Of a stretch of DNA of 64,000 nucleotides, positions 23,334 through 35,087 are shown in pieces. The stretch's first letter is position 1. The number at the start of each line of letters is the position of its first letter. The notes beneath the pieces were generated by a model. It saw nothing but the letters and a program-made list of their open reading frames with translations. It ran no database searches and had not been told where the DNA came from. Location of the stretch: assembly GCA_013696965.1 (NCBI GenBank), contig JACCXN010000005.1, forward strand, positions 8,016 to 72,015. The letters are read 5' to 3'. Source of the stretch: Bacteroidota bacterium (GTDB taxonomy: Bacteria > Bacteroidota > Bacteroidia > JACCXN01). The position numbers were made by a program, and so were the translations under genes.

Positions 23334-24692
23334 ATGGCTCAAATTGAATTGATTTTACCTAAAATGGGTGAGAGTGTTGCTGAGGCAACCATTATAAAGT
23401 GGTTAAAAAATGAAGGGGAGCATATTGATGCAGACGAATCTGTTTTAGAAATTGCTACAGATAAAGTTGATTCTGAAGTGCCTTCCCCAACTCAGGGTAT
23501 TTTGATTAAAAGAATGTTCAATGAGGGTGATGTTGTACAAGTTGGTTCAGTAATAGCATTGATTGGCTCTAAAGAGGAGGTAAAAAACGAACCGGTAACA
23601 CAGCCGGAAAAAATGACTGCTTCGGCAGTTCAAAATTCGATTCCAGCTCCAAGACATGCAGAAATAAGTGTTAAGGAAATTGAAATTCCAAGAACCTCAG
23701 AAGGTGGAAAGTTCTACTCTCCTCTAGTACGAAATATAGCAAAAACAGAAGGTATTTCAACTACCGAACTTGAAAAGTTGCATGGAACGGGGTCTGATGG
23801 AAGGGTAACAAAAAATGATATTTTAGACTACCTATCCAAACGCTCCAATGGAACAAATATTTCTGAACCAGTTTTGGAGCAAAATGGAAAAACAAGTTCA
23901 AGTCAACAAGTAAGTAATGTTCAAACACCGCAAATACAACAAGCCACCACATCAATAAAGCACCCCGTTGTTAGCGCTGGAGAAAACGATGAGATAATTG
24001 AAATGGATAGGATGCGAAAGCTTATTGCAGACCATATGGTTATGTCCAAGCATGTTGCACCCCATGTTACATCATTCGTAGAAGTAGACGTTACCAACCT
24101 TGTGATGTGGAGGGAGAAAAACAAAAAGGAATTTGAAAAGCGCGAAGGAGAAAAAATAACTTATACCCCTATTTTTATCGAGGCTGTAACAAGGGCAATT
24201 AAAGAATTTCCAATGATCAACATTGCTGTTAGCGGAAGCAATATTATAAAAAGAAAAAACATAAACATAGGTATAGCAACTGCCCTGCCCACAGGAAATT
24301 TAATTGTTCCTGTAATAAAAAATGCTGATCAAATGAATTTGGTCGGATTAACAAAAACTGTAAATGATCTTGTTGCAAGGGCAAGAGTGAATAAGCTAAA
24401 ACCAGATGATATTCAAGGTGGTACATTCACAATTTCCAATGTAGGAACTTTTGGAAACGTGATGGGAACACCAATTATTAATCAGCCACAAGTTGCAATA
24501 CTTGCTGTTGGTGCAATACGTAAAAAACCAGTGGTAATTGAAACTCCACAAGGTGATACCATAGGAATCCGTCATATGATGTTCTTATCTATGTCTTATG
24601 ATCATAGGGTTGTAGATGGAATGTTAGGTGGAACTTTTATAAGGAGAGTTGGTGATTTACTTGAAAGTTTTGATTTAAACCATCAGTTCTGA
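23334..24692 (+). CDS. Dihydrolipoyl acyltransferase E2 of a 2-oxo acid dehydrogenase
   Basis: The E2 core of a pyruvate, 2-oxoglutarate or branched-chain oxo-acid dehydrogenase. One lipoyl domain (about 2-76) has the lipoylated Lys44 in EIATDKVDSEVP. A peripheral-subunit-binding domain follows (about 125-162, SPLVRNIAKTEGIS, GSDGRVTKNDIL). The catalytic domain (about 215-448) ends with the active-site motif SYDHRVVDGMLGG. A Gln/Ser-rich linker lies between. The substrate cannot be fixed from sequence, and no E1 or E3 gene is nearby. It is followed at only 16 bp by gldL, an unexpected operon partner. Confidence 0.92.
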   Translation: MAQIELILPKMGESVAEATIIKWLKNEGEHIDADESVLEIATDKVDSEVPSPTQGILIKRMFNEGDVVQVGSVIALIGSKEEVKNEPVTQPEKMTASAVQNSIPAPRHAEISVKEIEIPRTSEGGKFYSPLVRNIAKTEGISTTELEKLHGTGSDGRVTKNDILDYLSKRSNGTNISEPVLEQNGKTSSSQQVSNVQTPQIQQATTSIKHPVVSAGENDEIIEMDRMRKLIADHMVMSKHVAPHVTSFVEVDVTNLVMWREKNKKEFEKREGEKITYTPIFIEAVTRAIKEFPMINIAVSGSNIIKRKNINIGIATALPTGNLIVPVIKNADQMNLVGLTKTVNDLVARARVNKLKPDDIQGGTFTISNVGTFGNVMGTPIINQPQVAILAVGAIRKKPVVIETPQGDTIGIRHMMFLSMSYDHRVVDGMLGGTFIRRVGDLLESFDLNHQF

Positions 24693-24708
24693 TCCAATTA
24701 ATCCACTT

Positions 24709-25635
24709 ATGAAAAACAAGGATACTTACTTTGATTTTATTAATTTCGCCTATGGAATAGGCGCTGCCATTGTAATCATTGGTGCTATGTTTAAATTCCT
24801 TGGTTGGGATTATGCCAATGAATTTTTCCTAGTTGGATTAACTACTGAGGCTGTTGTTTTTAGCATATCTGCTTTTGAATTTAAAAAAAAGAAAACGCCT
24901 GCATCAGCGGTAAAAGTTTATCATTGGGAAAATATTTTTCCACAACTTTTAACATCTGAACTACATAATCCGGATGTACTTTCCAAAGTTGCAGAGGAAC
25001 AAACTCTGAATACTGTTGCTATAACAAAATCTCTTGGAAATTTTAATCTAGCAATTGAAAAATTAAACGAAGTTAGCAACCAGTTGGTTCTTGGTATTAA
25101 CACCATGTCCAATGCTATTAAACAATTGGAAAAAACAACTGAAGATTATTCCATGGAAATGGGTTTGCTTAAAGAAAATGTACAGCAATTAAATTCTTTG
25201 CATAATTCCCATTTAAGAAGTCTAGCCTTAACTCTTCCTTGTTATGAAAAAGAATTTATCAATCTTTCCAAATCCCTTTGCTCTATAAATGAAAAATATA
25301 TTAATCACAATACCAGTTTTGATCATGCTTCCTTGGTTTATGATAAACAGTTTAAGGAGTTAAATGAAAACCTTCAAAAAACAAATTCTATTTACTTAAG
25401 GCAAATGAACCAATTGGAAGATTCATCCAGCGGATATGAAAAAGAATTCACTATGCTAAATGAAAACCTTTTGAAAATAAATTCCTTTTATACTGAACAT
25501 TTATCCAAAAACGGAAGAAATTCTGAGGATTTTGAAAAAGAATTTGCTAGCCTAGGGGCAAACATGTCAAAAGTAAATTCTTTTTATACTGATATGCTAG
25601 GAGCAGTAGGAAGAATTACTCGCCCTACTGTTTAA
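24709..25635 (+). CDS. gldL: GldL-family T9SS/gliding motor protein with expanded 32-residue repeats
   Basis: GldL and GldM form the proton-driven motor of type IX secretion and gliding. Two N-terminal helices are present (INFAYGIGAAIVIIGAMFKF, then FFLVGLTTEAVVFSISAF), with Lys29 and Glu47 at the positions known to matter in the Flavobacterium protein (Lys27, Glu49). Helix 1 has the family sequence NFAYGIGAA. After a helical linker come five repeats with a period of exactly 32 residues, starting near 147, 179, 211, 243 and 275 (pattern YEKEFxxLNENLxKINSFY). Usual GldL proteins have fewer such units. gldM follows at 19 bp; no gldK precedes it. Confidence 0.88.
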   Translation: MKNKDTYFDFINFAYGIGAAIVIIGAMFKFLGWDYANEFFLVGLTTEAVVFSISAFEFKKKKTPASAVKVYHWENIFPQLLTSELHNPDVLSKVAEEQTLNTVAITKSLGNFNLAIEKLNEVSNQLVLGINTMSNAIKQLEKTTEDYSMEMGLLKENVQQLNSLHNSHLRSLALTLPCYEKEFINLSKSLCSINEKYINHNTSFDHASLVYDKQFKELNENLQKTNSIYLRQMNQLEDSSSGYEKEFTMLNENLLKINSFYTEHLSKNGRNSEDFEKEFASLGANMSKVNSFYTDMLGAVGRITRPTV

Positions 25636-25654
25636 ACATACAGAAATAGCTTTA

Positions 25655-26980
25655 ATGGAAGATAACAACAACAGTGATCGTAAGGCACTCAGGAACAAAA
25701 TGGTAGGCTTTATGTACTTGATTTTTATAGTTCTTGCGTTCCTTTATATTCCTTCTGATTTTATTGACACAATTCGGGATGTAAATACTTCTTTTGAAAA
25801 ATCTTCAAAAGAAATGAATAGCATGAAAAATTACAATTTCCTGTTAATTAAAGCTGGATTAAAAGCTGATTCTACAATAAACAATAAGATAATTGCAATT
25901 GACTTTAAAAGAATTTCAGTATTATCCGACAGCATATGCAATCAGCTTGAATTTATTAAGCAAAGGGTTTTGGATGTTTCTGGGGGAATCAATAAGTATG
26001 GTTTTCTAAAAAATGCCAAGGACAACCAATTTACTGATGAAATAATGCTTGAGCAGGGAGTTGCAAAAAAAATTCATACCATGTTACATAATTTTAAAAC
26101 ACATATAAATAATGCAGGAACTTCTATCAATCCTGTTTTGCTTGATTCGATTTTACCAACAGATGAATTTGTAAACACCTCCACTGGGAAGAGTCAAACC
26201 TGGGAGAAATTTTATTTTTATAAAATGCCATTAACAGTTTCAATTGCCTTGATTGCAAAATTTCAAAATGATGTAAAACAAATTGAATTCATGGCAATGG
26301 AAGAATATCTTTTTAACCTTAAAGAGAATTATGAATTGACTTTGATTCCAAAAAACAAAAAAACAGAAGAAAACAAGACATTAAAAAACAACCCAAAAAT
26401 CCTTGATCCTGAAGCTTACATTAAAAATCCCGGATTTAATATTTTATATGTTGATGTTGACAATCCATTAAAAATTTATCATCCCGGATTTGGAAATTCT
26501 GATATTATTGCGGAGGTATCAAAGGGTGAAATATTTAAAAAGGACAGTCTTTTTTACCTGAGGGTAAATAATGAAGGAATTGTTGTTGTTACTGCATTTA
26601 GTAAAGAAAATAAAAAATTATTGGCGAAGCAGGAATTCCTTGTAAAGAATCTACCTGAACCCTCTGCCTTTATTGCTGAGAGAAAAGGGGGCAATATTTC
26701 TTCAAAAATATTCAAACTGCAAAAGCATATTGAGGTACAAAATGAAATTTCAGATAACAAGGATGGTTACATGGTCAAAAACTTTTCCTTAATAAGGATT
26801 AGTGCAAGTTCGGAAATGCAAAAATCCAAAAACAACCATGGATCTTTTTTCAACTCAAGCACACGTGATTTAATTGATGGAGCTCAAAGAGGAGATATAT
26901 TTATTTTTGACAACATCGAGGTAGAAATCCCAGGAGGAAGCATAAAAAAGGTTTCCTCAATTGTATTTACAGTTATTTAA
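25655..26980 (+). CDS. gldM: GldM-family T9SS/gliding motor protein, divergent
   Basis: Partner of GldL: one N-terminal membrane helix (about 17-34) and a long periplasmic part. Arg13 in RNKMVGFMYL lines up with the Arg of the classical RQKM start. The segment TWEKFYFYKMPLTVSIALIA followed by KFQNDVKQIE is the known GldM hallmark before the D1/D2 boundary, and the end (RDLIDGAQRGDIFIFDNIEV, then PGGSIKKV) fits the last GldM domain. At 441 residues it is shorter than the usual 510 or so. The family call is secure; whether it powers secretion, gliding or something else is not shown by sequence. Confidence 0.88.
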   Translation: MEDNNNSDRKALRNKMVGFMYLIFIVLAFLYIPSDFIDTIRDVNTSFEKSSKEMNSMKNYNFLLIKAGLKADSTINNKIIAIDFKRISVLSDSICNQLEFIKQRVLDVSGGINKYGFLKNAKDNQFTDEIMLEQGVAKKIHTMLHNFKTHINNAGTSINPVLLDSILPTDEFVNTSTGKSQTWEKFYFYKMPLTVSIALIAKFQNDVKQIEFMAMEEYLFNLKENYELTLIPKNKKTEENKTLKNNPKILDPEAYIKNPGFNILYVDVDNPLKIYHPGFGNSDIIAEVSKGEIFKKDSLFYLRVNNEGIVVVTAFSKENKKLLAKQEFLVKNLPEPSAFIAERKGGNISSKIFKLQKHIEVQNEISDNKDGYMVKNFSLIRISASSEMQKSKNNHGSFFNSSTRDLIDGAQRGDIFIFDNIEVEIPGGSIKKVSSIVFTVI

Positions 26981-26986
26981 ATATTT

Positions 26987-28336
26987 ATGGCTAAAATTAA
27001 TTTGTTTTTTATATTACTGACTGTGATTTCAACCTCAGTTACAAGCTCATTAATAGCAACCAATTCAGAAATAATCGTAACAAATTTCATTGAGAAAGAT
27101 CATACTTTGGAAAAAGGAATTTATATCATTGAAAACAATGTAAAAGTTAGCAAAAATGCAACTCTTACAGTAAAATCAGGATGTAAACTTTATTTTAGAA
27201 AAGGAGCTTCATTAAAAATTGACGGGGGCCTTATTCTTGAGGGAAAACCAAACAACCTAATTGAATTAACTAGTGAGGACAAGGAAAATGAAGGTTTTGG
27301 AATAGTAATATCAGGATCAACCAAGGATAAAGTAATCATTATCAATTACACCAAATTCAGTTATTTGTTAGTTCCATTGAATTTTGAAAAAAACTGGGTA
27401 AGAAAAAAAATAAATATCGAGGATAATGTGTTTGAAAACATTATAACAGGAGAAAAATCAATCATTATCAGATGTCCTGATGAAATTACCTCCAGGGATA
27501 CAATTGAATTTAATTTTTCAAAAAATAATTTCATTCAAAACAACAGCAGTATTTTCATTGAAAACATTGAATCGAATTTGTTAAATTTACAATTCAGGTA
27601 CAACCTTATAACCCAAAACTATTTTTTTGGATTTGAAGTAGGAAGCAGTTTAAACGCTCCTGTTTCTACAACTTACAATAAAAATGATCAAGCTTTTCTA
27701 GCAGATTTTTCCGGAAATTCTATTTTCAACAATTTTCTATTGCACTCCTCTAATGATACTGTAATTCAGGAAGTGAATTTTGGAATTCAAGGACGTGCAG
27801 AAAAGTATTCCCTGAATGATAATTATTTTGGAAATAAAAATATTCCACAAATTCAAAAAACTTTTGATCATTTCAGCAATCACCAGTTTTCGCCTTTTGT
27901 CTTTATTGATACTGCTTTACAAGTACCATCAGATTCTGTTCACGGACATATCTGGAAAATTTCGATTAACAATAATGAATTGGTTCCGAAAAATTTTCTG
28001 CCTTTATTAACAGAGCAAAAACTGGAAATTCAGATAAGTTACAATAGATCATTAATCGTTCGCGAAGGAATTAATTATATTACTTACTCATTTTTTGATA
28101 AAATTGACAATGAATTAAAAACTAAAAGTTTATCTTGTGCTTTAAAACTTAATAAAGAAAATAAATCTATCTCTTTTATTAGCAAAGATGAGGTATATAT
28201 TAAGAACCCCAATGGATATTTTTCTATTAATGGTTTAACGGATAATGATGGATTTAGAGTGCCAAAGGTTTATATTGGTAAAGAACAATTTAAAGTATTT
28301 TTAATTAATAACAACATCAAAATTAATCTTGAATGA
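26987..28336 (+). CDS. Exported beta-helix-like protein in the gldLM unit
   Basis: A signal peptide (about 1-24) is followed by sequence with the rhythm of a right-handed parallel beta-helix (about 35-290): short strands such as ENNVKVSKNATLTVKSGCK and GGLILEGKPNNLIEL, and Asn-rich turns. The final 150 residues look like beta-sandwich. I do not recognise a named family. It lies 6 bp after gldM and overlaps the next gene by 4 bp, so it is translationally coupled to the motor and the PorE-like protein. This is the place where gldN stands in the classical operon, but the protein has no GldN likeness. Confidence 0.65.
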   Translation: MAKINLFFILLTVISTSVTSSLIATNSEIIVTNFIEKDHTLEKGIYIIENNVKVSKNATLTVKSGCKLYFRKGASLKIDGGLILEGKPNNLIELTSEDKENEGFGIVISGSTKDKVIIINYTKFSYLLVPLNFEKNWVRKKINIEDNVFENIITGEKSIIIRCPDEITSRDTIEFNFSKNNFIQNNSSIFIENIESNLLNLQFRYNLITQNYFFGFEVGSSLNAPVSTTYNKNDQAFLADFSGNSIFNNFLLHSSNDTVIQEVNFGIQGRAEKYSLNDNYFGNKNIPQIQKTFDHFSNHQFSPFVFIDTALQVPSDSVHGHIWKISINNNELVPKNFLPLLTEQKLEIQISYNRSLIVREGINYITYSFFDKIDNELKTKSLSCALKLNKENKSISFISKDEVYIKNPNGYFSINGLTDNDGFRVPKVYIGKEQFKVFLINNNIKINLE

Positions 28337-30315
28337 CAACTAAAGTTAAAATCACACTTTCTGCAGTTTTAGTTTTTCTTATTTATTTTTCACCCCTAAC
28401 TGCATCCAATATTGAAGATGGTTATAAAAAAAGTTTTGAAAAGGCAAATTTTCAACTTTATAATCAAATGTATACTAAGGCCTTAGATTTGTTTTTAAAA
28501 ATAGATTCTCTTTATCCGGATAATTCCAACATTAATTTTAAGATTGGCCTTTGTTATTATAATTTACCAACAAATAAATTAAAATCGATTCCTTTTTTTG
28601 AAAAAGCTGTTAAAAATTTATCTGAAAAATACAACGAGAAAAAAGCTACAGAAAAAAATGCTCCATATATTACCCTTTATTATTTAGCACAGGTTTATCA
28701 TTTGAATTATAGTTTTGACAATGCATTAACCACATTTAACCAATTTAAAACCTTTATTGGAACAACTGATATTCAATTAAATAAGGAGGTTGACAATTAC
28801 ATAAAAATGTGTAATAATGGCAAAATGTTTGTAAACGCTCCAATCCAAATTGAGATTACAAACATAGGAGAGAAAATTAATTCTGTATATCCTGAATATG
28901 CTCCTGTGATATCTGCTGATGAATCAGTACTTATTTTTACTTCCAGAAGACCTGAGAGTGCTGGTGGTAAAAAGACTGAAGATGGTCAATACTTTGAGGA
29001 CATTTATATTTCAACTAAAGAGAACGGGGAATGGAGCACACCTGTTAGCATAAGCCCTAATATCAATACCGCGGCTCATGAAGCAAGTGTAGGACTCTCA
29101 GTTGATGGACAGTCTCTACTTTTATATAAGAGTGAAGGACCTGAGGGCAATATTTATATTAGTAAACTTATAGGAGATAAATGGGAAGTTCCAGTTAAGC
29201 TATCAGAAAACATTACAGGAAAATCCTGGGAACCAAGTGCAAGTATTTCAGCAGACGGAAACAGCCTGTACTTTACAAGCGATAGAAAAGGCGGTTTTGG
29301 AGGAAGAGATATTTACAAATCAAAAAAACTTCCCAATGGTGATTGGAGTTTACCAGTGAATATGGGTCCTGAAATTAACACTGAATTTGATGAGGACGGC
29401 CCTTTTATACACCCTGATGGAAAAACATTGTTTTTTAGTTCAAAAGGACATTCTACTATGGGCGGATTTGATGTATTCTTTAGCATTATGGATGAAAACG
29501 GAAAATTTCAGAAGCCATCAAATCTTGGATATCCGGTTAACACAACAGATGATGACATTTATTATTCCCTTTCTGCAGATGGTAAAAGAGCATATTATTC
29601 TTCTTCAAAAGAGGGTGGTTTTGGCGAAAAGGATCTTTATTTGCTTAATTTTATTGAACATAAAGAAACTCCTCTTGCACTTATAAAAGGTACAATTCTG
29701 GATGTTTATGGGAATGTACCCCTGGTTGATATTATTGTAACAGATAATGAAACAGAGGAAATTGTAGGTATTTATTACCCAAATACTAAAACAGGAAATT
29801 ATCTTTTTATTTTACCCCCGGGAGCAAATTATAATATCTCCTATGAGGCCGAAGGATATCTTTTTAAATCCGAAAACATTGATGTTCCTATAGATGCAAA
29901 CTATTATGTGATTAATCAATCAATCAATCTACAACTAATAGAGATAGGACAAAAAATAGTCCTTAACAATATTTTCTTTGACTTTGGTAAATCTACTTTA
30001 CGCAGTACATCAAAAGTAGAACTTCAAAAACTTTATACCCTACTAGAAAAGAATCCATCACTTACTGTTGAAATTTCTGGTCATACAGATCATATTGGTT
30101 CAAAAGAGATGAACGTTAAGCTTTCACAGGAAAGGGCCCAGGCTGTGGTAACATACATTACAGAAAAAGGAATGGGTGGTTCAAGATTGCTTGCTAAAGG
30201 TTTTGGAAGTGCGCAACCTCTAACAAATGGAAAGAATAATGATGGGTCTGACAATCCTGAAGGAATGCAGTTAAACAGAAGGGTTGAAATGAAAATTATA
30301 GGGATTAATAAATAA
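28333..30315 (+). CDS. PorE-like protein 1: TPR, beta-propeller, CRD, OmpA
   Basis: A signal peptide (about 1-25) is followed by TPR-like helices (30-150), a PD40/WD40-like propeller (187-440, repeats such as SADGNSLYFTSDRKGGFGGRD), a carboxypeptidase-regulatory-like domain (450-535) and a C-terminal OmpA domain (541-657). The OmpA domain has the peptidoglycan-binding Asp586 (GHTD) and Arg601 (SQERAQAVV). This is the PorE architecture; PorE anchors the T9SS trans-envelope ring to peptidoglycan. Its start overlaps the stop of the beta-helix gene (ATGA), tying it to gldLM. Confidence 0.87.
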   Translation: MTTKVKITLSAVLVFLIYFSPLTASNIEDGYKKSFEKANFQLYNQMYTKALDLFLKIDSLYPDNSNINFKIGLCYYNLPTNKLKSIPFFEKAVKNLSEKYNEKKATEKNAPYITLYYLAQVYHLNYSFDNALTTFNQFKTFIGTTDIQLNKEVDNYIKMCNNGKMFVNAPIQIEITNIGEKINSVYPEYAPVISADESVLIFTSRRPESAGGKKTEDGQYFEDIYISTKENGEWSTPVSISPNINTAAHEASVGLSVDGQSLLLYKSEGPEGNIYISKLIGDKWEVPVKLSENITGKSWEPSASISADGNSLYFTSDRKGGFGGRDIYKSKKLPNGDWSLPVNMGPEINTEFDEDGPFIHPDGKTLFFSSKGHSTMGGFDVFFSIMDENGKFQKPSNLGYPVNTTDDDIYYSLSADGKRAYYSSSKEGGFGEKDLYLLNFIEHKETPLALIKGTILDVYGNVPLVDIIVTDNETEEIVGIYYPNTKTGNYLFILPPGANYNISYEAEGYLFKSENIDVPIDANYYVINQSINLQLIEIGQKIVLNNIFFDFGKSTLRSTSKVELQKLYTLLEKNPSLTVEISGHTDHIGSKEMNVKLSQERAQAVVTYITEKGMGGSRLLAKGFGSAQPLTNGKNNDGSDNPEGMQLNRRVEMKIIGINK

Positions 30316-30345
30316 AGGACAAAAAAATATTTATTCAATAAATCA

Positions 30346-30353
30346 TATATTTG
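30346..30353 (+). promoter_or_regulatory. Candidate -7 box before PorE-like gene 2
   Basis: TATATTTG fits TAnnTTTG and lies in the 113-bp gap, 75 bp before the ATG at 30429. The second PorE-like gene may thus have its own promoter in addition to readthrough. Confidence 0.35.
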
Positions 30354-30428
30354 CTTTTAAACCAGCCATAACGGTTATTTTTTGAAAATTCAGTTGATGA
30401 AATTATTTCATGCAAAACCCACTTTAAA

Positions 30429-33335
30429 ATGAAAAAGCTTTTAATTTTCAACTTTCTTATTCTTTGTTCCACTGTGCTTTTTTCACAGAATTTTGACAAA
30501 GGACTATTCAAAGAAAAATTCATTGAAGCACAATATCATATTGAATTTGAAAACTATAAACTGGCTCTTCCTATTTTTATTGAACTAAATAAAATGGATC
30601 CTGAAAATTCAAATGTGAATTTCAAAGTTGGACTTTGCATGATTAAATCAAACATAAGAAAGGCAGAAGCTGTTGGTTTTCTTGAAAAAGCTGTATTAAA
30701 TGTTTCACCAAATTACGATGATCTGAATCCCTTTGAAAAAAGAGCCCCGGTTAATGCTCTTTATTACCTTGGATTTGCCTATCATATTGCCTATAAATTA
30801 GATGAGGCAATTGCAACTTTTGAAAAATTCAAAAGCGTAATCAGCAAAAAAAATTATATGGTTGCTGACGCAGAAAGGTCAATAGTCATGTGTTTAAACG
30901 CTAAGGAATTCATAGGTAACAAAAAAGAATATATAATTGATTGTTTAAGTGACTCCATTAACACTCCTTATCCTGAATACAGCCCTGTTGTTTCCCTGGA
31001 TGAATCAACCCTTATTTTTACAAGTAGAAGGGCTGAAGAATCAGGAAGCATCGCTGAATCCATGCATAATGAAGATATTTATATTTCTTATAAAGACAAT
31101 AATGGTATTTGGTCGGCAGCAAAATCAATAGGCACAAGCATTAACACCATGGATCATGAGGCAAGTATTGGACTTTCTGCTGATGGACAAAAATTGTTTA
31201 TCTATAAAAGTGATGATGGTGGTAGTATTTGGATGAGCGAACAGCTAAGTGAGAGCTGGTCTGTACCACAAAAGCTGGATTTTGATGTTAATTCCGAACA
31301 TTGGGAAACGCATGCAGTAATAACTGCTGAGCAGAAAACAATCTATTTTGCAAGCAACAGGCCAGGTGGCCAAGGTGGCAGGGATATTTGGATGTGTAAG
31401 AAATTGCCAAATGGAAAATGGGCAAAAGCACAAAATTTAGGAGCGCAGATAAACACAAAACATGATGAGGATGCTCCTTTTATACACCCCAATGGTAAAA
31501 CAATTTACTTTAGCTCTGACGGTCATAAAACCATGGGAGGATTTGATATATTTTATTCTGAAATACAGGAAGATGGAAAATGGAGCAGCCCAATAAACAT
31601 GGGTTATCCAATAAACACAACGGATGATGATATTTATTTTGTCACATCAGGTGATGGAAAAAGAGGTTATTTTTCTTCCCTTCGTGAGAACTGCATTGGA
31701 GAAAAAGATATTTTCATGGTTACAATTGATGATATTCAAGTGGAATCAATTACTGTACTGAAAGGAAAAATCACCATCGATGGAGATGAAAAACTTCCCT
31801 CCGGTGCCCTTATTTATGTAACTGATGTAGAAACAGGAATTGTGGTTAACGAATCAAGGCCTAACCCTAGAACAAGTGTTTATACACTTGCTTTATCTCC
31901 AGGCGAGCATGGCAAAACATACTCTATTAGTTATTCTGCCGAAGGATTTGAACCTATTACCGCAACCATTGAAATTGAAGCAGGAATGGGTTACCAGGAA
32001 ATTGAAAAAGAATTGTTCCTTCACCCAATTAATTTCGAAAGCAAAACCAAAGGTACAGTTGCACTTTCCGGAACAATTAAAAACAGGCAAGGAGAATTTA
32101 TTTCCGCCACAATTTCTGTAATTGATAACATTACTGGTGAAGAAATTTTTACAGCCCTAACAAAAGGTACTGAGGCACCCTATTATTTTGTTTTGCAATT
32201 GGGGAAAAATTACAATATATCCTATGAAGCTGAAGATTACCTGTTTCATTCAGAAAATCTAAACATTCCAAATAAACCAGAATATTCAGAAATTAAAAAG
32301 AATATTATTCTTGAAAAAATAGAAACAGGAACCAAAATTGTTTTAAATAATATTTTCTTTGATCATAATAAATCCATATTGCGAAAGGAATCTAATGTTG
32401 AATTGGAAAAATTGTATACTTTACTAAACAAAAGACCTGAATTAAAAATTGAAGTTGGCGGCCACACAGACAGTAAAGGAAACGCTGAGGTAAATATGGT
32501 TTTATCCAAAGCAAGAGCTCAGGCAGTTGTTGATTACCTGACAAAAAATGGAATAAACAGATCACGCCTTGTAGCAAAAGGTTATGGAAAAGATGCTCCT
32601 ATTGCTCCGAATAATTTAGCCAATGGAAAACCGGATTTAGATGGTATGCAATTAAACAGGCGTGTAGAGTTTAAAATTCTTGATTATACAAAAGCTGAAC
32701 TGGAAAAAGTTAGAGAAAATCAAACTAATACGGCAGAAGTTGAAACCATAATAATTGACAACAGAAGTGACCTGGTAACCAAACCAGTTAATTACACTAC
32801 TAAATCCCCGTTATATGGTGTTCAAATCGGAGCTTTTCAAACATCTTTACCGAACAACGATTTCCCAAATGTAAAAAACGTTCATAGTTTTATTGATAAT
32901 GATGGAATGATTCGATATGTCATTGGTAGTTTTAACATAAGGAGCCAGGCTGAAACCCTTAAAAAAGCTGTTGTTGAAGCGGGATACAAGGATGCTTTTA
33001 TTGTAGACGTGAATAAGGAAAAAAAGTTTACAAATGAAGTTGTTCATGAAAAAAAGCCGAAATCTCTGGAAAAAGTTGAATACATGGTTCAGGTTGGTGC
33101 ATACTCCACTACAATAACTGCCCAGGCAGCAAAGAGTATGGTAGAAATTGACGGTATTATTGAAAAACAAAACGGAGAGTTAATGCTCCTAACGGTTGGA
33201 TCTTTCTCTAACATAGAAAGTGCTGAAAAATTAAAAAACGAACTTGTTGCAAAAGGGGTTCAGGAAGCTTTTGTAATTGCTTTTTTAAATGATAAAAAAA
33301 TAACGCTACAGGCTGCAAAAGAATTTGCAAAATAA
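30429..33335 (+). CDS. PorE-like protein 2: TPR, beta-propeller, two CRDs, OmpA, two SPOR-like domains
   Basis: A paralogue of the preceding protein with extra parts. After a signal peptide (about 1-20) come TPR helices (25-155), a propeller (185-432), two carboxypeptidase-regulatory-like domains (443-530 and 543-630) and OmpA (637-752), with the expected Asp (GHTDSKG) and Arg (SKARAQAVV). Two SPOR-like domains follow, at about 795-862 (YGVQIGAF) and 884-952 (YMVQVGAY, LLTVGSF). SPOR domains bind glycan strands stripped of stem peptides. At 968 residues it is far longer than ordinary PorE. It should be periplasmic and grip peptidoglycan at two kinds of site. Confidence 0.85.
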   Translation: MKKLLIFNFLILCSTVLFSQNFDKGLFKEKFIEAQYHIEFENYKLALPIFIELNKMDPENSNVNFKVGLCMIKSNIRKAEAVGFLEKAVLNVSPNYDDLNPFEKRAPVNALYYLGFAYHIAYKLDEAIATFEKFKSVISKKNYMVADAERSIVMCLNAKEFIGNKKEYIIDCLSDSINTPYPEYSPVVSLDESTLIFTSRRAEESGSIAESMHNEDIYISYKDNNGIWSAAKSIGTSINTMDHEASIGLSADGQKLFIYKSDDGGSIWMSEQLSESWSVPQKLDFDVNSEHWETHAVITAEQKTIYFASNRPGGQGGRDIWMCKKLPNGKWAKAQNLGAQINTKHDEDAPFIHPNGKTIYFSSDGHKTMGGFDIFYSEIQEDGKWSSPINMGYPINTTDDDIYFVTSGDGKRGYFSSLRENCIGEKDIFMVTIDDIQVESITVLKGKITIDGDEKLPSGALIYVTDVETGIVVNESRPNPRTSVYTLALSPGEHGKTYSISYSAEGFEPITATIEIEAGMGYQEIEKELFLHPINFESKTKGTVALSGTIKNRQGEFISATISVIDNITGEEIFTALTKGTEAPYYFVLQLGKNYNISYEAEDYLFHSENLNIPNKPEYSEIKKNIILEKIETGTKIVLNNIFFDHNKSILRKESNVELEKLYTLLNKRPELKIEVGGHTDSKGNAEVNMVLSKARAQAVVDYLTKNGINRSRLVAKGYGKDAPIAPNNLANGKPDLDGMQLNRRVEFKILDYTKAELEKVRENQTNTAEVETIIIDNRSDLVTKPVNYTTKSPLYGVQIGAFQTSLPNNDFPNVKNVHSFIDNDGMIRYVIGSFNIRSQAETLKKAVVEAGYKDAFIVDVNKEKKFTNEVVHEKKPKSLEKVEYMVQVGAYSTTITAQAAKSMVEIDGIIEKQNGELMLLTVGSFSNIESAEKLKNELVAKGVQEAFVIAFLNDKKITLQAAKEFAK

Positions 33336-33475
33336 ATAGCAAAGCAATTTAACTTTGTGAACCTATGCTTTTCACACCTTTATTAAACGCATTTTACTTT
33401 TCGAGATGTGATTTTAAATAATATTAACATTTGTTGATATTATTTGCCGAAAATGCAGTAGAAATAATAGCAAAT

Positions 33476-33503
33476 TTTGTATTATTGGTAGTTGATATTT
33501 TTG
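33476..33503 (+). promoter_or_regulatory. Candidate promoter before PorE-like gene 3
   Basis: TATTTTTG (33496-33503) fits TAnnTTTG, with TTTG at 33476-33479, 16 bases upstream, as a possible -33 element. The ATG is 9 bases after the -7 box, so the transcript would be almost leaderless. Confidence 0.4.
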
Positions 33504-33512
33504 ATTTGAACC

Positions 33513-35087
33513 ATGCGCTATTCCTTTTCAATACTATTTTTAATTTCCATTTTATCTTTTTCTTACTTGGCGGCTTCAGCCCAAACTGATCCACGGGAAG
33601 CAAAAGAACATTATAATAAAAGAAATTATGTAGCTGCAGTGTTGGTTTTTGATAAACTTATTAAAGAAGAGCCAGGTAATTCGGATTACCTTCATAAAGC
33701 GGGCATTTGTTATCTTAAAACAAATATTGATAAAACCAAGGCCATCCCCTATCTTGAAAAAGCAGTGAAAATTGTAAAAGTAGACCCTGAAGCATTTTTT
33801 GATTTAGGGTTAGCCTATCAGTATGCTTATCGTTTTGATGATGCTATTAAAAGTTTTGAAAAATATAAAACTTTTATAGCAGGGAAAGACATTGAATTAA
33901 AAAAAGCTGCAAGACAAATAGAAACTTGCTACAATGCAAAGGAATTAATCAAATATCCATTGAATGTAACATTTGAAAATATGGGTCCAGAAATAAATAC
34001 TGAGTATCCTGATTACTATCCCTTTATTGCTCCGGATGAAACCTTCTTGATTTTCACTACGCGTAGAAAAGGAGCTCCTGCGGTAATGGAATTTGATGGG
34101 TTCTACTCTTCCGATATTTATATATCAAATGCATTGAATGGAGAATTCACAAAATCCAAGTCTATTGGTAATTCAATAAATTCCAGTTTTGATGAGCAAG
34201 CAGTAGGTATGTCTGGAGACGGAAATCAGCTTTTTGTATATATTGATAATATTAAGGAATTTGGAGATATTTATCTCTCTGAAAGAAAGCCAGGAGGTAC
34301 GTATAAGAAACCAGTAATAATAGGCGAAGCTGTAAATTCAAAGTCTTTAGAAACATCTGGCACCATTTCATACGATGATAACATTCTTTTTTATGCAAGC
34401 GATAAACCCGGAGGTTTTGGCGGCAGGGACATTTACATGACAAGAAAGTTACCAAATGGTAATTGGGCCCAGTCTCAAAATTTGGGTCCAAATGTTAATT
34501 CTGCTTATAATGAAGATTTTCCTAATATTCTTTCAGATGGAAAAACCCTTTATTTTGCATCTGAAGGGCATATGGGTATAGGAGGTTATGATATATTTCA
34601 TACTCAATGGAATGAAGAATCCAATACCTGGTCTACACCAAAAAATGCCGGCTACCCTTTAAATACTCCAGAGGACAATCATATGATAACATTTACCGAA
34701 GATGGAAAACATGGCTATACCTCTTTATTAAGAAAAGGTGGGTATGGAGATCTGGATATTTACAAAGTAACTTTTAATGAGGTAGAAGCTCAACAAACTG
34801 TAATTAGAGGGATATTATCCTCTCTTGATACACTTCAACCAGTTACTGCACCGTTAATAACATTGTTTGACTTAAATAATTCTGATGCAGAGCCCAATGT
34901 TTATTCAATAAATCCAAATAATAACAGTTGTACAATTATTGTTGTGCCCGGGAAATATGAGCTTGTAATAGAAGCAGATGGATTTGATGATTACAAGGAA
35001 AAACTAGTGATTTTTGATAAGGACGGTTGGCAAGCGCAAATTGAAAAATATTTAATAATGAAGCCAACAAATTACAAAATAAAATGA
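33513..35087 (+). CDS. PorE-like protein 3: TPR and beta-propeller, no OmpA domain
   Basis: The third paralogue has a signal peptide (about 1-23, LAASAQ), TPR helices (25-150), a propeller (about 170-430) with the same repeat signatures as its neighbours (ASDKPGGFGGRDIYMTRKLP), and one carboxypeptidase-regulatory-like domain (430-520). It stops there, without the OmpA peptidoglycan-binding domain. It therefore cannot anchor to the wall in the PorE manner and may be a partner or spacer of the other two. The end is a clean stop codon, with no sign of a frameshift. Confidence 0.82.
   Translation: MRYSFSILFLISILSFSYLAASAQTDPREAKEHYNKRNYVAAVLVFDKLIKEEPGNSDYLHKAGICYLKTNIDKTKAIPYLEKAVKIVKVDPEAFFDLGLAYQYAYRFDDAIKSFEKYKTFIAGKDIELKKAARQIETCYNAKELIKYPLNVTFENMGPEINTEYPDYYPFIAPDETFLIFTTRRKGAPAVMEFDGFYSSDIYISNALNGEFTKSKSIGNSINSSFDEQAVGMSGDGNQLFVYIDNIKEFGDIYLSERKPGGTYKKPVIIGEAVNSKSLETSGTISYDDNILFYASDKPGGFGGRDIYMTRKLPNGNWAQSQNLGPNVNSAYNEDFPNILSDGKTLYFASEGHMGIGGYDIFHTQWNEESNTWSTPKNAGYPLNTPEDNHMITFTEDGKHGYTSLLRKGGYGDLDIYKVTFNEVEAQQTVIRGILSSLDTLQPVTAPLITLFDLNNSDAEPNVYSINPNNNSCTIIVVPGKYELVIEADGFDDYKEKLVIFDKDGWQAQIEKYLIMKPTNYKIK

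Follow-up and report, generated by a model that had tools for sequence, protein, structure and literature searches.

Introduction

GldL and GldM (PorL and PorM) form the proton-driven motor of the type IX secretion system (T9SS) and of gliding, and the open-access literature searched links them to these two functions only (e.g., PMC9389320, PMC13104615). In F. johnsoniae, glutamate E49 of GldL is required for motor function, whereas gliding alone depends on a second glutamate, E59 (PMC8986121). We analyzed a stretch of 64,000 nucleotides from a Bacteroidota bacterium (contig JACCXN010000005.1; hereafter the window). It carries a divergent gldL-gldM pair followed by a gene for a putative exported beta-helix protein and by three genes for PorE-like proteins (table 1). 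We propose, with a probability of about two in three, that this unit encodes a GldLM-type motor that is paralogous to the T9SS motor yet separate from it, and that would act on an outer-membrane beta-helix protein. Genes of this type are named gldL2 and gldM2 below, and their loci system 2. In the open-access literature, we found no second GldLM clade, no gldLM-beta-helix locus, and no heterodimeric GldM, which is weak evidence of absence.

A Second gldLM Pair in a Genome with a Complete T9SS Operon

System 2 resembles the T9SS motor in the adjacency of gldL and gldM, in the transmembrane (TM) lysine and glutamate of GldL, and in the TM arginine and the D1, D3, and D4 domains of GldM. The window GldL passes the TIGR03513 model (107 bits for a curated cut-off of 68.3) and matches PF22827 with 74.8 bits. 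Its TM lysine and glutamate, K29 and E47, which belong to the proton path, are invariant in all GldLs compared (20/20 from system 2 and 36/36 classical), E47 being the equivalent of F. johnsoniae E49. At the position equivalent to E59, 11 of the 20 system-2 proteins have a glutamate, among them the window protein (E57), and the other nine have D, Q, or R. A difference from the T9SS GldL lies in the cytoplasmic tail. Most GldL2 tails are short, whereas that of the window protein is extended and contains 32-residue repeats: five copies of a 19-residue motif (e.g., YEKEFTMLNENLLKINSFY; window:25147-25587, residues 147-293) start at residues 147, 179, 211, 243, and 275, an exact 32-residue spacing. 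The other system-2 GldLs are 117-192 amino acids long, mostly 161-192, and those checked contain the motif at most once. The 117-residue protein corresponds to a short open reading frame (ORF) in genome G191.

The window GldM matches PF12081, PF21602, and PF12080 (D1, D3, and D4) above the Pfam cut-offs and is similar to PorM (7cmg; phmmer, 7e-20). Its score against TIGR03517, 129.7 bits, is under the cut-off of 180. Unlike the T9SS GldM, it has no Pfam match to D2 (PF21601), and its alignment with other GldMs (A8) shows a gap there. It is 441 amino acids long, versus 505-571 for classical GldMs and for relatives with a single GldM. The TM arginine is retained (R13).

In the phylogenies, system 2 and classical proteins fall into separate clades. 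A single branch of the GldL tree parts the GldL2 proteins (20 rows) from the classical ones (36 rows), with bootstrap and Shimodaira-Hasegawa-like approximate likelihood ratio test (SH-aLRT) values of 99/97. Likewise, a quick tree including all 31 GldM2 proteins parts them from classical GldMs by one branch (SH-aLRT 99.8), and this split reaches 100/100 in a careful tree built without the most divergent GldMs, those of the f11 type described below. The classical rows were either similar to GldL2 by selection or taken from genomes carrying both types, so that the split is not a species effect. The trees are unrooted and do not set the order of ancestry between the two types.

The window genome (3.86 Mb) encodes two GldMs. 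The other belongs to a classical operon on contig C9, porP-gldK-gldL-gldM-gldN-gldN', and has all four domains. The only GldK of the genome above the cut-off and both GldNs lie in this operon, and the single SprA is encoded on the same contig. As a complete classical operon exists elsewhere in the genome, the window gldLM would constitute a true second motor. The original prediction had described a divergent gldLM lacking gldK and gldN and had recognized that it might be the only gldLM of the genome; its divergence is borne out by the separate GldL and GldM clades, gldK and gldN are indeed absent next to it, and it is not the only pair.

Conservation of the Unit among Bacteroidota

Searching with the beta-helix protein first led to genome G035, in which the gene follows another divergent gldL-gldM pair. 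The conserved order gldL2-gldM2-(gldM2b)-beta-helix was found in 23 further Bacteroidota genomes, giving 24 distinct genomes with the window. Among 395 evenly sampled genomes of the class, 14 carry the unit, the window genome counted. Twelve were recognized through GldL2, and two (G227 and G308) through the beta-helix protein, near contig ends. A contig scan with the GldL2 N-terminus retained 80 loci, picked by their similarity to GldL2: 14 belong to system 2 and 66 are classical loci with gldK. Four of these 14 system-2 loci were already in the sample of 395 genomes and were removed from the count of distinct genomes. A phylum-wide search with the beta-helix protein returned, beyond the window, only weak partial matches to generic beta-helix proteins and no case outside the class.

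System 2 differs from the T9SS loci in gene content as well as in phylogeny. No gldK, gldN, or porP was found in the fetched flanks of system-2 loci, and the beta-helix gene stands in their place. In the window it occupies the position of gldN, as originally described. Neighboring genes of the unit are mostly -1 to 26 bp apart in the relatives; a few gaps measure 35 to 162 bp. In the closest relatives, L051 and L052, genes for exported-looking proteins of 353 and 427 amino acids are located ~50-70 bp upstream of gldL2.

The classical apparatus of the carriers is encoded elsewhere. A classical GldM is present in every system-2 carrier tested, and 14 of 14 genomes encode a GldJ relative. Each of six genomes has a single GldK above the cut-off, and in 14 genomes every GldN found is encoded on a contig other than that of the unit. 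SprA is present once per genome in the 13 genomes tested (in G227 as two adjacent pieces on one contig), which makes a second complete T9SS unlikely. This speaks against the second secretion route that had been suggested for the window unit.

The Predicted Beta-Helix Protein and the PorG-Like Barrel of Its Relatives

The exported protein of the window has no match in Pfam or NCBIfam. Its AlphaFold2 model (predicted local distance difference test score, pLDDT, 83.1) consists of a right-handed beta-helix followed by an Ig-like domain, the latter label being a reading of the strand pattern in the model. Foldseek alone gave no match under an E-value of 0.001 for this protein. VIA-align superposed the helix on right-handed beta-helix proteins (PL6 lyases, AlgG, and NosD) with Z scores of 17-19.5, a PL6 chain reaching 19.5. 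PL6 lyases and AlgG rank high in this list, as do unrelated beta-helices; the resemblance of the predicted fold carries no functional information. A search among viral structures retrieved generic tailspike and lyase folds only. The conserved positions of the family are mainly glycines and asparagines, with one W-x-R motif.

Most relatives encode longer beta-helix proteins, of 675-775 amino acids, that end in a barrel resembling PorG (NF052316/DUF6089), whereas the window copy ends at residue 449 without a barrel. The proteins of L053 and L054 (408-421 amino acids) likewise lack an in-frame barrel. In three tested relatives, the C-terminus matches PorG with 96.8, 62.9, and 35 bits for a cut-off of 130. 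As the class-wide search with the alignment of beta-helix-barrel proteins (A1) was dominated by ordinary DUF6089/PorG barrels, we kept only the matches covering the beta-helix part. In the L051 protein, modeled with a pLDDT of 70.8 and a poorly predicted linker, the beta-helix and the Ig-like domain are followed by long helices and by the eight strands of the barrel. Its predicted 8-stranded barrel resembles OmpA (TMt 0.79). Unlike PorG itself, the barrel is fused behind the beta-helix, the Ig-like domain, and, in the L051 model, the long helical stretch. Both ends of barrels with an even number of strands should face the periplasm; the beta-helix would therefore be within reach of GldM2. In G191 (L044:7991-10196; L095 is the same contig), the beta-helix and the barrel are split over two overlapping ORFs in different frames.

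Paired GldM Proteins

In about half of the relatives, two GldM-like genes separate gldL2 from the beta-helix gene. This organization, overlooked in the original prediction together with the beta-helix-fused PorG-like barrel of the relatives, is found in the f11-type loci (L045, L046, L047, L049, L053-L057, and L160) and in two Bacteroidales metagenome-assembled genomes (L051 and L052). Profile comparison identified both f11 GldM types as full-length GldM relatives, with probabilities of 98.7% and 99.4%. The TM arginine is conserved in 39/39 classical GldMs, in 9/9 single GldM2s, and in the downstream copy of all 11 pairs. Of the 11 upstream copies, only that of L052 keeps the arginine; the other 10 have N, S, T, or Q instead. 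The obvious inference from these sequences is that paired GldM2s would form a heterodimeric axle. In the GldM tree, the pairs of L051 and L052 sit apart from those of the f11 type, so pairing may have had multiple origins. Additional gldM genes were also observed downstream in classical operons (L096:10666 and 13244; G078 contig C10, L130 and L142; G349 contig C80, L136 and L143), indicating that gldM duplication also happens inside the ordinary T9SS locus.

The PorE-Like Genes Are Not Part of the Conserved Unit

The three PorE-like proteins of the window are TPR/PD40 proteins and, for the first two, share the domain order of the PorE/CHU_0125 TPR-PD40-OmpA proteins. They differ from these by scores far under the PorE cut-off (NF052230; 284, 303, and 170 bits for 600), by the SPOR domains of the second, and by the lack of OmpA in the third. 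The second and third are 38% and 37% identical to the first. The genome encodes more than 12 TPR/PD40 paralogues, with 31 stretches matching NF052230, which represents a large PorE-like expansion; its best PorE match (530 bits) is encoded on contig C79. Judged by these profile scores, the window proteins are three paralogues and not the PorE orthologue.

No PorE-like gene was found beside the unit in the relatives. The gldL-gldM-beta-helix neighborhood looked for since the original prediction thus recurs in the 23 genomes without the PorE-like genes that had been included in it, and the idea that the motor brings its own PorE wall anchors does not hold for the relatives. What stands of the three PorE-like proteins is their TPR/PD40 character; one lacks OmpA and none attains the cut-off. 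Given that its gene shares 4 bp with the beta-helix gene, PorE-like protein 1 may plausibly stand in, in the window lineage, for the lost barrel; it is a possible lineage-specific anchor to the wall or the outer membrane. A link of the second and third PorE-like proteins to the motor is uncertain. In G078 alone, the beta-helix-barrel gene is followed after 178 bp by a gene for an OmpA-bearing PorG-like barrel fusion (L043:9911-11488).

Proposed Function and Alternative Explanations

The unit would encode a second proton-driven motor of the 5:2 type, in which five GldL surround two GldM. Proton flow via GldL2 would turn or bend the GldM2 dimer, and the tip of GldM2 would act on the beta-helix/Ig arm of a protein anchored in the outer membrane, which would replace the GldK-GldN ring. 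In the window lineage, devoid of the barrel, the PorE-like OmpA proteins may provide the outer-membrane or wall anchor. Tol-Pal (TolQR) and Ton (ExbBD) offer a comparable logic, an inner-membrane proton motor working on an outer-membrane partner, but by analogy only. The force might serve outer-membrane stabilization, surface movement, or a transport step; our preferred guess is a non-secretory outer-membrane job.

Several observations weigh against a separate motor of this kind. Its motor role is predicted from sequences and structural models, and the PorG matches of the relatives' barrels fall below the family cut-off. The window version lacks both the barrel and D2, and its mechanism may therefore differ from that of the relatives. 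The genome has many PorE-like genes, whose adjacency to gldLM is not conserved. Finally, a classical T9SS is present in every tested carrier, along with a GldJ relative, and the second motor may therefore cooperate with it.

Such cooperation would make GldL2 and GldM2 an auxiliary T9SS motor, driving the classical GldKN ring or SprA for special cargo, a particular cell site, or gliding. The homologous D1, D3, and D4 domains, the single SprA shared within each genome, the GldJ relative in 14 of 14 genomes, and the relatives' PorG-like barrel, PorG being a component of the PorK-PorN-PorG ring (PMC9143113), would all fit this role. We nevertheless consider it unlikely, as the operon never has gldK, gldN, or porP in its fetched flanks, has a private beta-helix-barrel partner, and encodes a GldM2 strongly diverged from classical GldM. 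Still less probable is that the window copy is a decaying paralogue devoid of motor function, having lost D2 and the barrel and expanded its GldL tail: the shortness of its GldM2 and the missing barrel point that way, but the ORFs are all intact and tightly packed, R13, K29, and E47 are kept, and the beta-helix model is confident. An ordinary T9SS motor whose genes were reordered, gldK and gldN lying in another place, would explain the recognizable GldL and GldM families, but the complete gldKLMN-N' operon of the same genome leaves it next to no probability, its survival requiring that C9, the 200-kb contig carrying SprA, PorP, and GldK, L, M, and N, be contamination (listed value for the genome, 2.08%).

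The proposal of a separate motor can be extended to all carriers, as a GldLM sister class independent of the T9SS and acting on a beta-helix/PorG-type outer-membrane protein, in which about half of the members would have a heterodimeric axle, usually with only one chain keeping the otherwise invariant TM arginine. We regard this extension as evenly balanced between true and false. A second GldLM clade with a conserved partner and neither ring nor translocon would mean that such motors have also been put to a different use in the envelope, and it would cast doubt on annotation that reads any gldLM as a sign of the T9SS. Paired GldMs, one of them without the otherwise invariant arginine, would provide a natural test of how much asymmetry a 5:2 motor permits between the two chains of its axle, a mechanistic question still open in the field.

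Organization of the Window Locus

The genes of the window unit are arranged head to tail. According to the ORF list, gldL and gldM are separated by 19 bp, and gldM and the beta-helix gene by 6 bp, which together with the 4-bp overlap confirms the tight packing first reported. The second and third PorE-like genes start after gaps of 113 and 177 bp. The span initially assigned to the unit, 23334-35087, ends correctly with the last PorE-like gene; its start is that of a flanking gene (table 1). Promoter and terminator scans gave signals no better than those of shuffled sequences.

Table 1. Features of the gldL2-gldM2 locus (window coordinates)
Feature	Position	Strand	Evidence or remark
2-oxoacid dehydrogenase E2 gene	23334-24692		Ends 16 bp upstream of gldL; outside the conserved gene set of the relatives
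gldL2, predicted motor subunit, two TM helices, 308 aa	24709..25635	+	TIGR03513, PF22827, clade, key residues, repeats
gldM2, predicted axle/periplasmic subunit, 441 aa, D1/D3/D4	25655..26980	+	Pfam, phmmer, clade
Beta-helix protein: N-terminal signal-like helix, right-handed beta-helix, Ig-like domain, 449 aa	26987..28336	+	AlphaFold2 model, VIA-align
PorE-like protein 1: PD40 propeller, OmpA	28333..30315	+	OmpA 74.6 bits, PD40 86.2 bits
PorE-like protein 2: PD40, OmpA, two SPOR domains	30429..33335	+	Domain profile matches
PorE-like protein 3: TPR, PD40, without OmpA	33513..35087	+	Domain profile matches

An E2-type 2-oxoacid dehydrogenase gene, which forms the upstream flank in the window, is also found 3' of the beta-helix gene in two distant relatives (L056 and L057). 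This shared proximity is probably due to chance.

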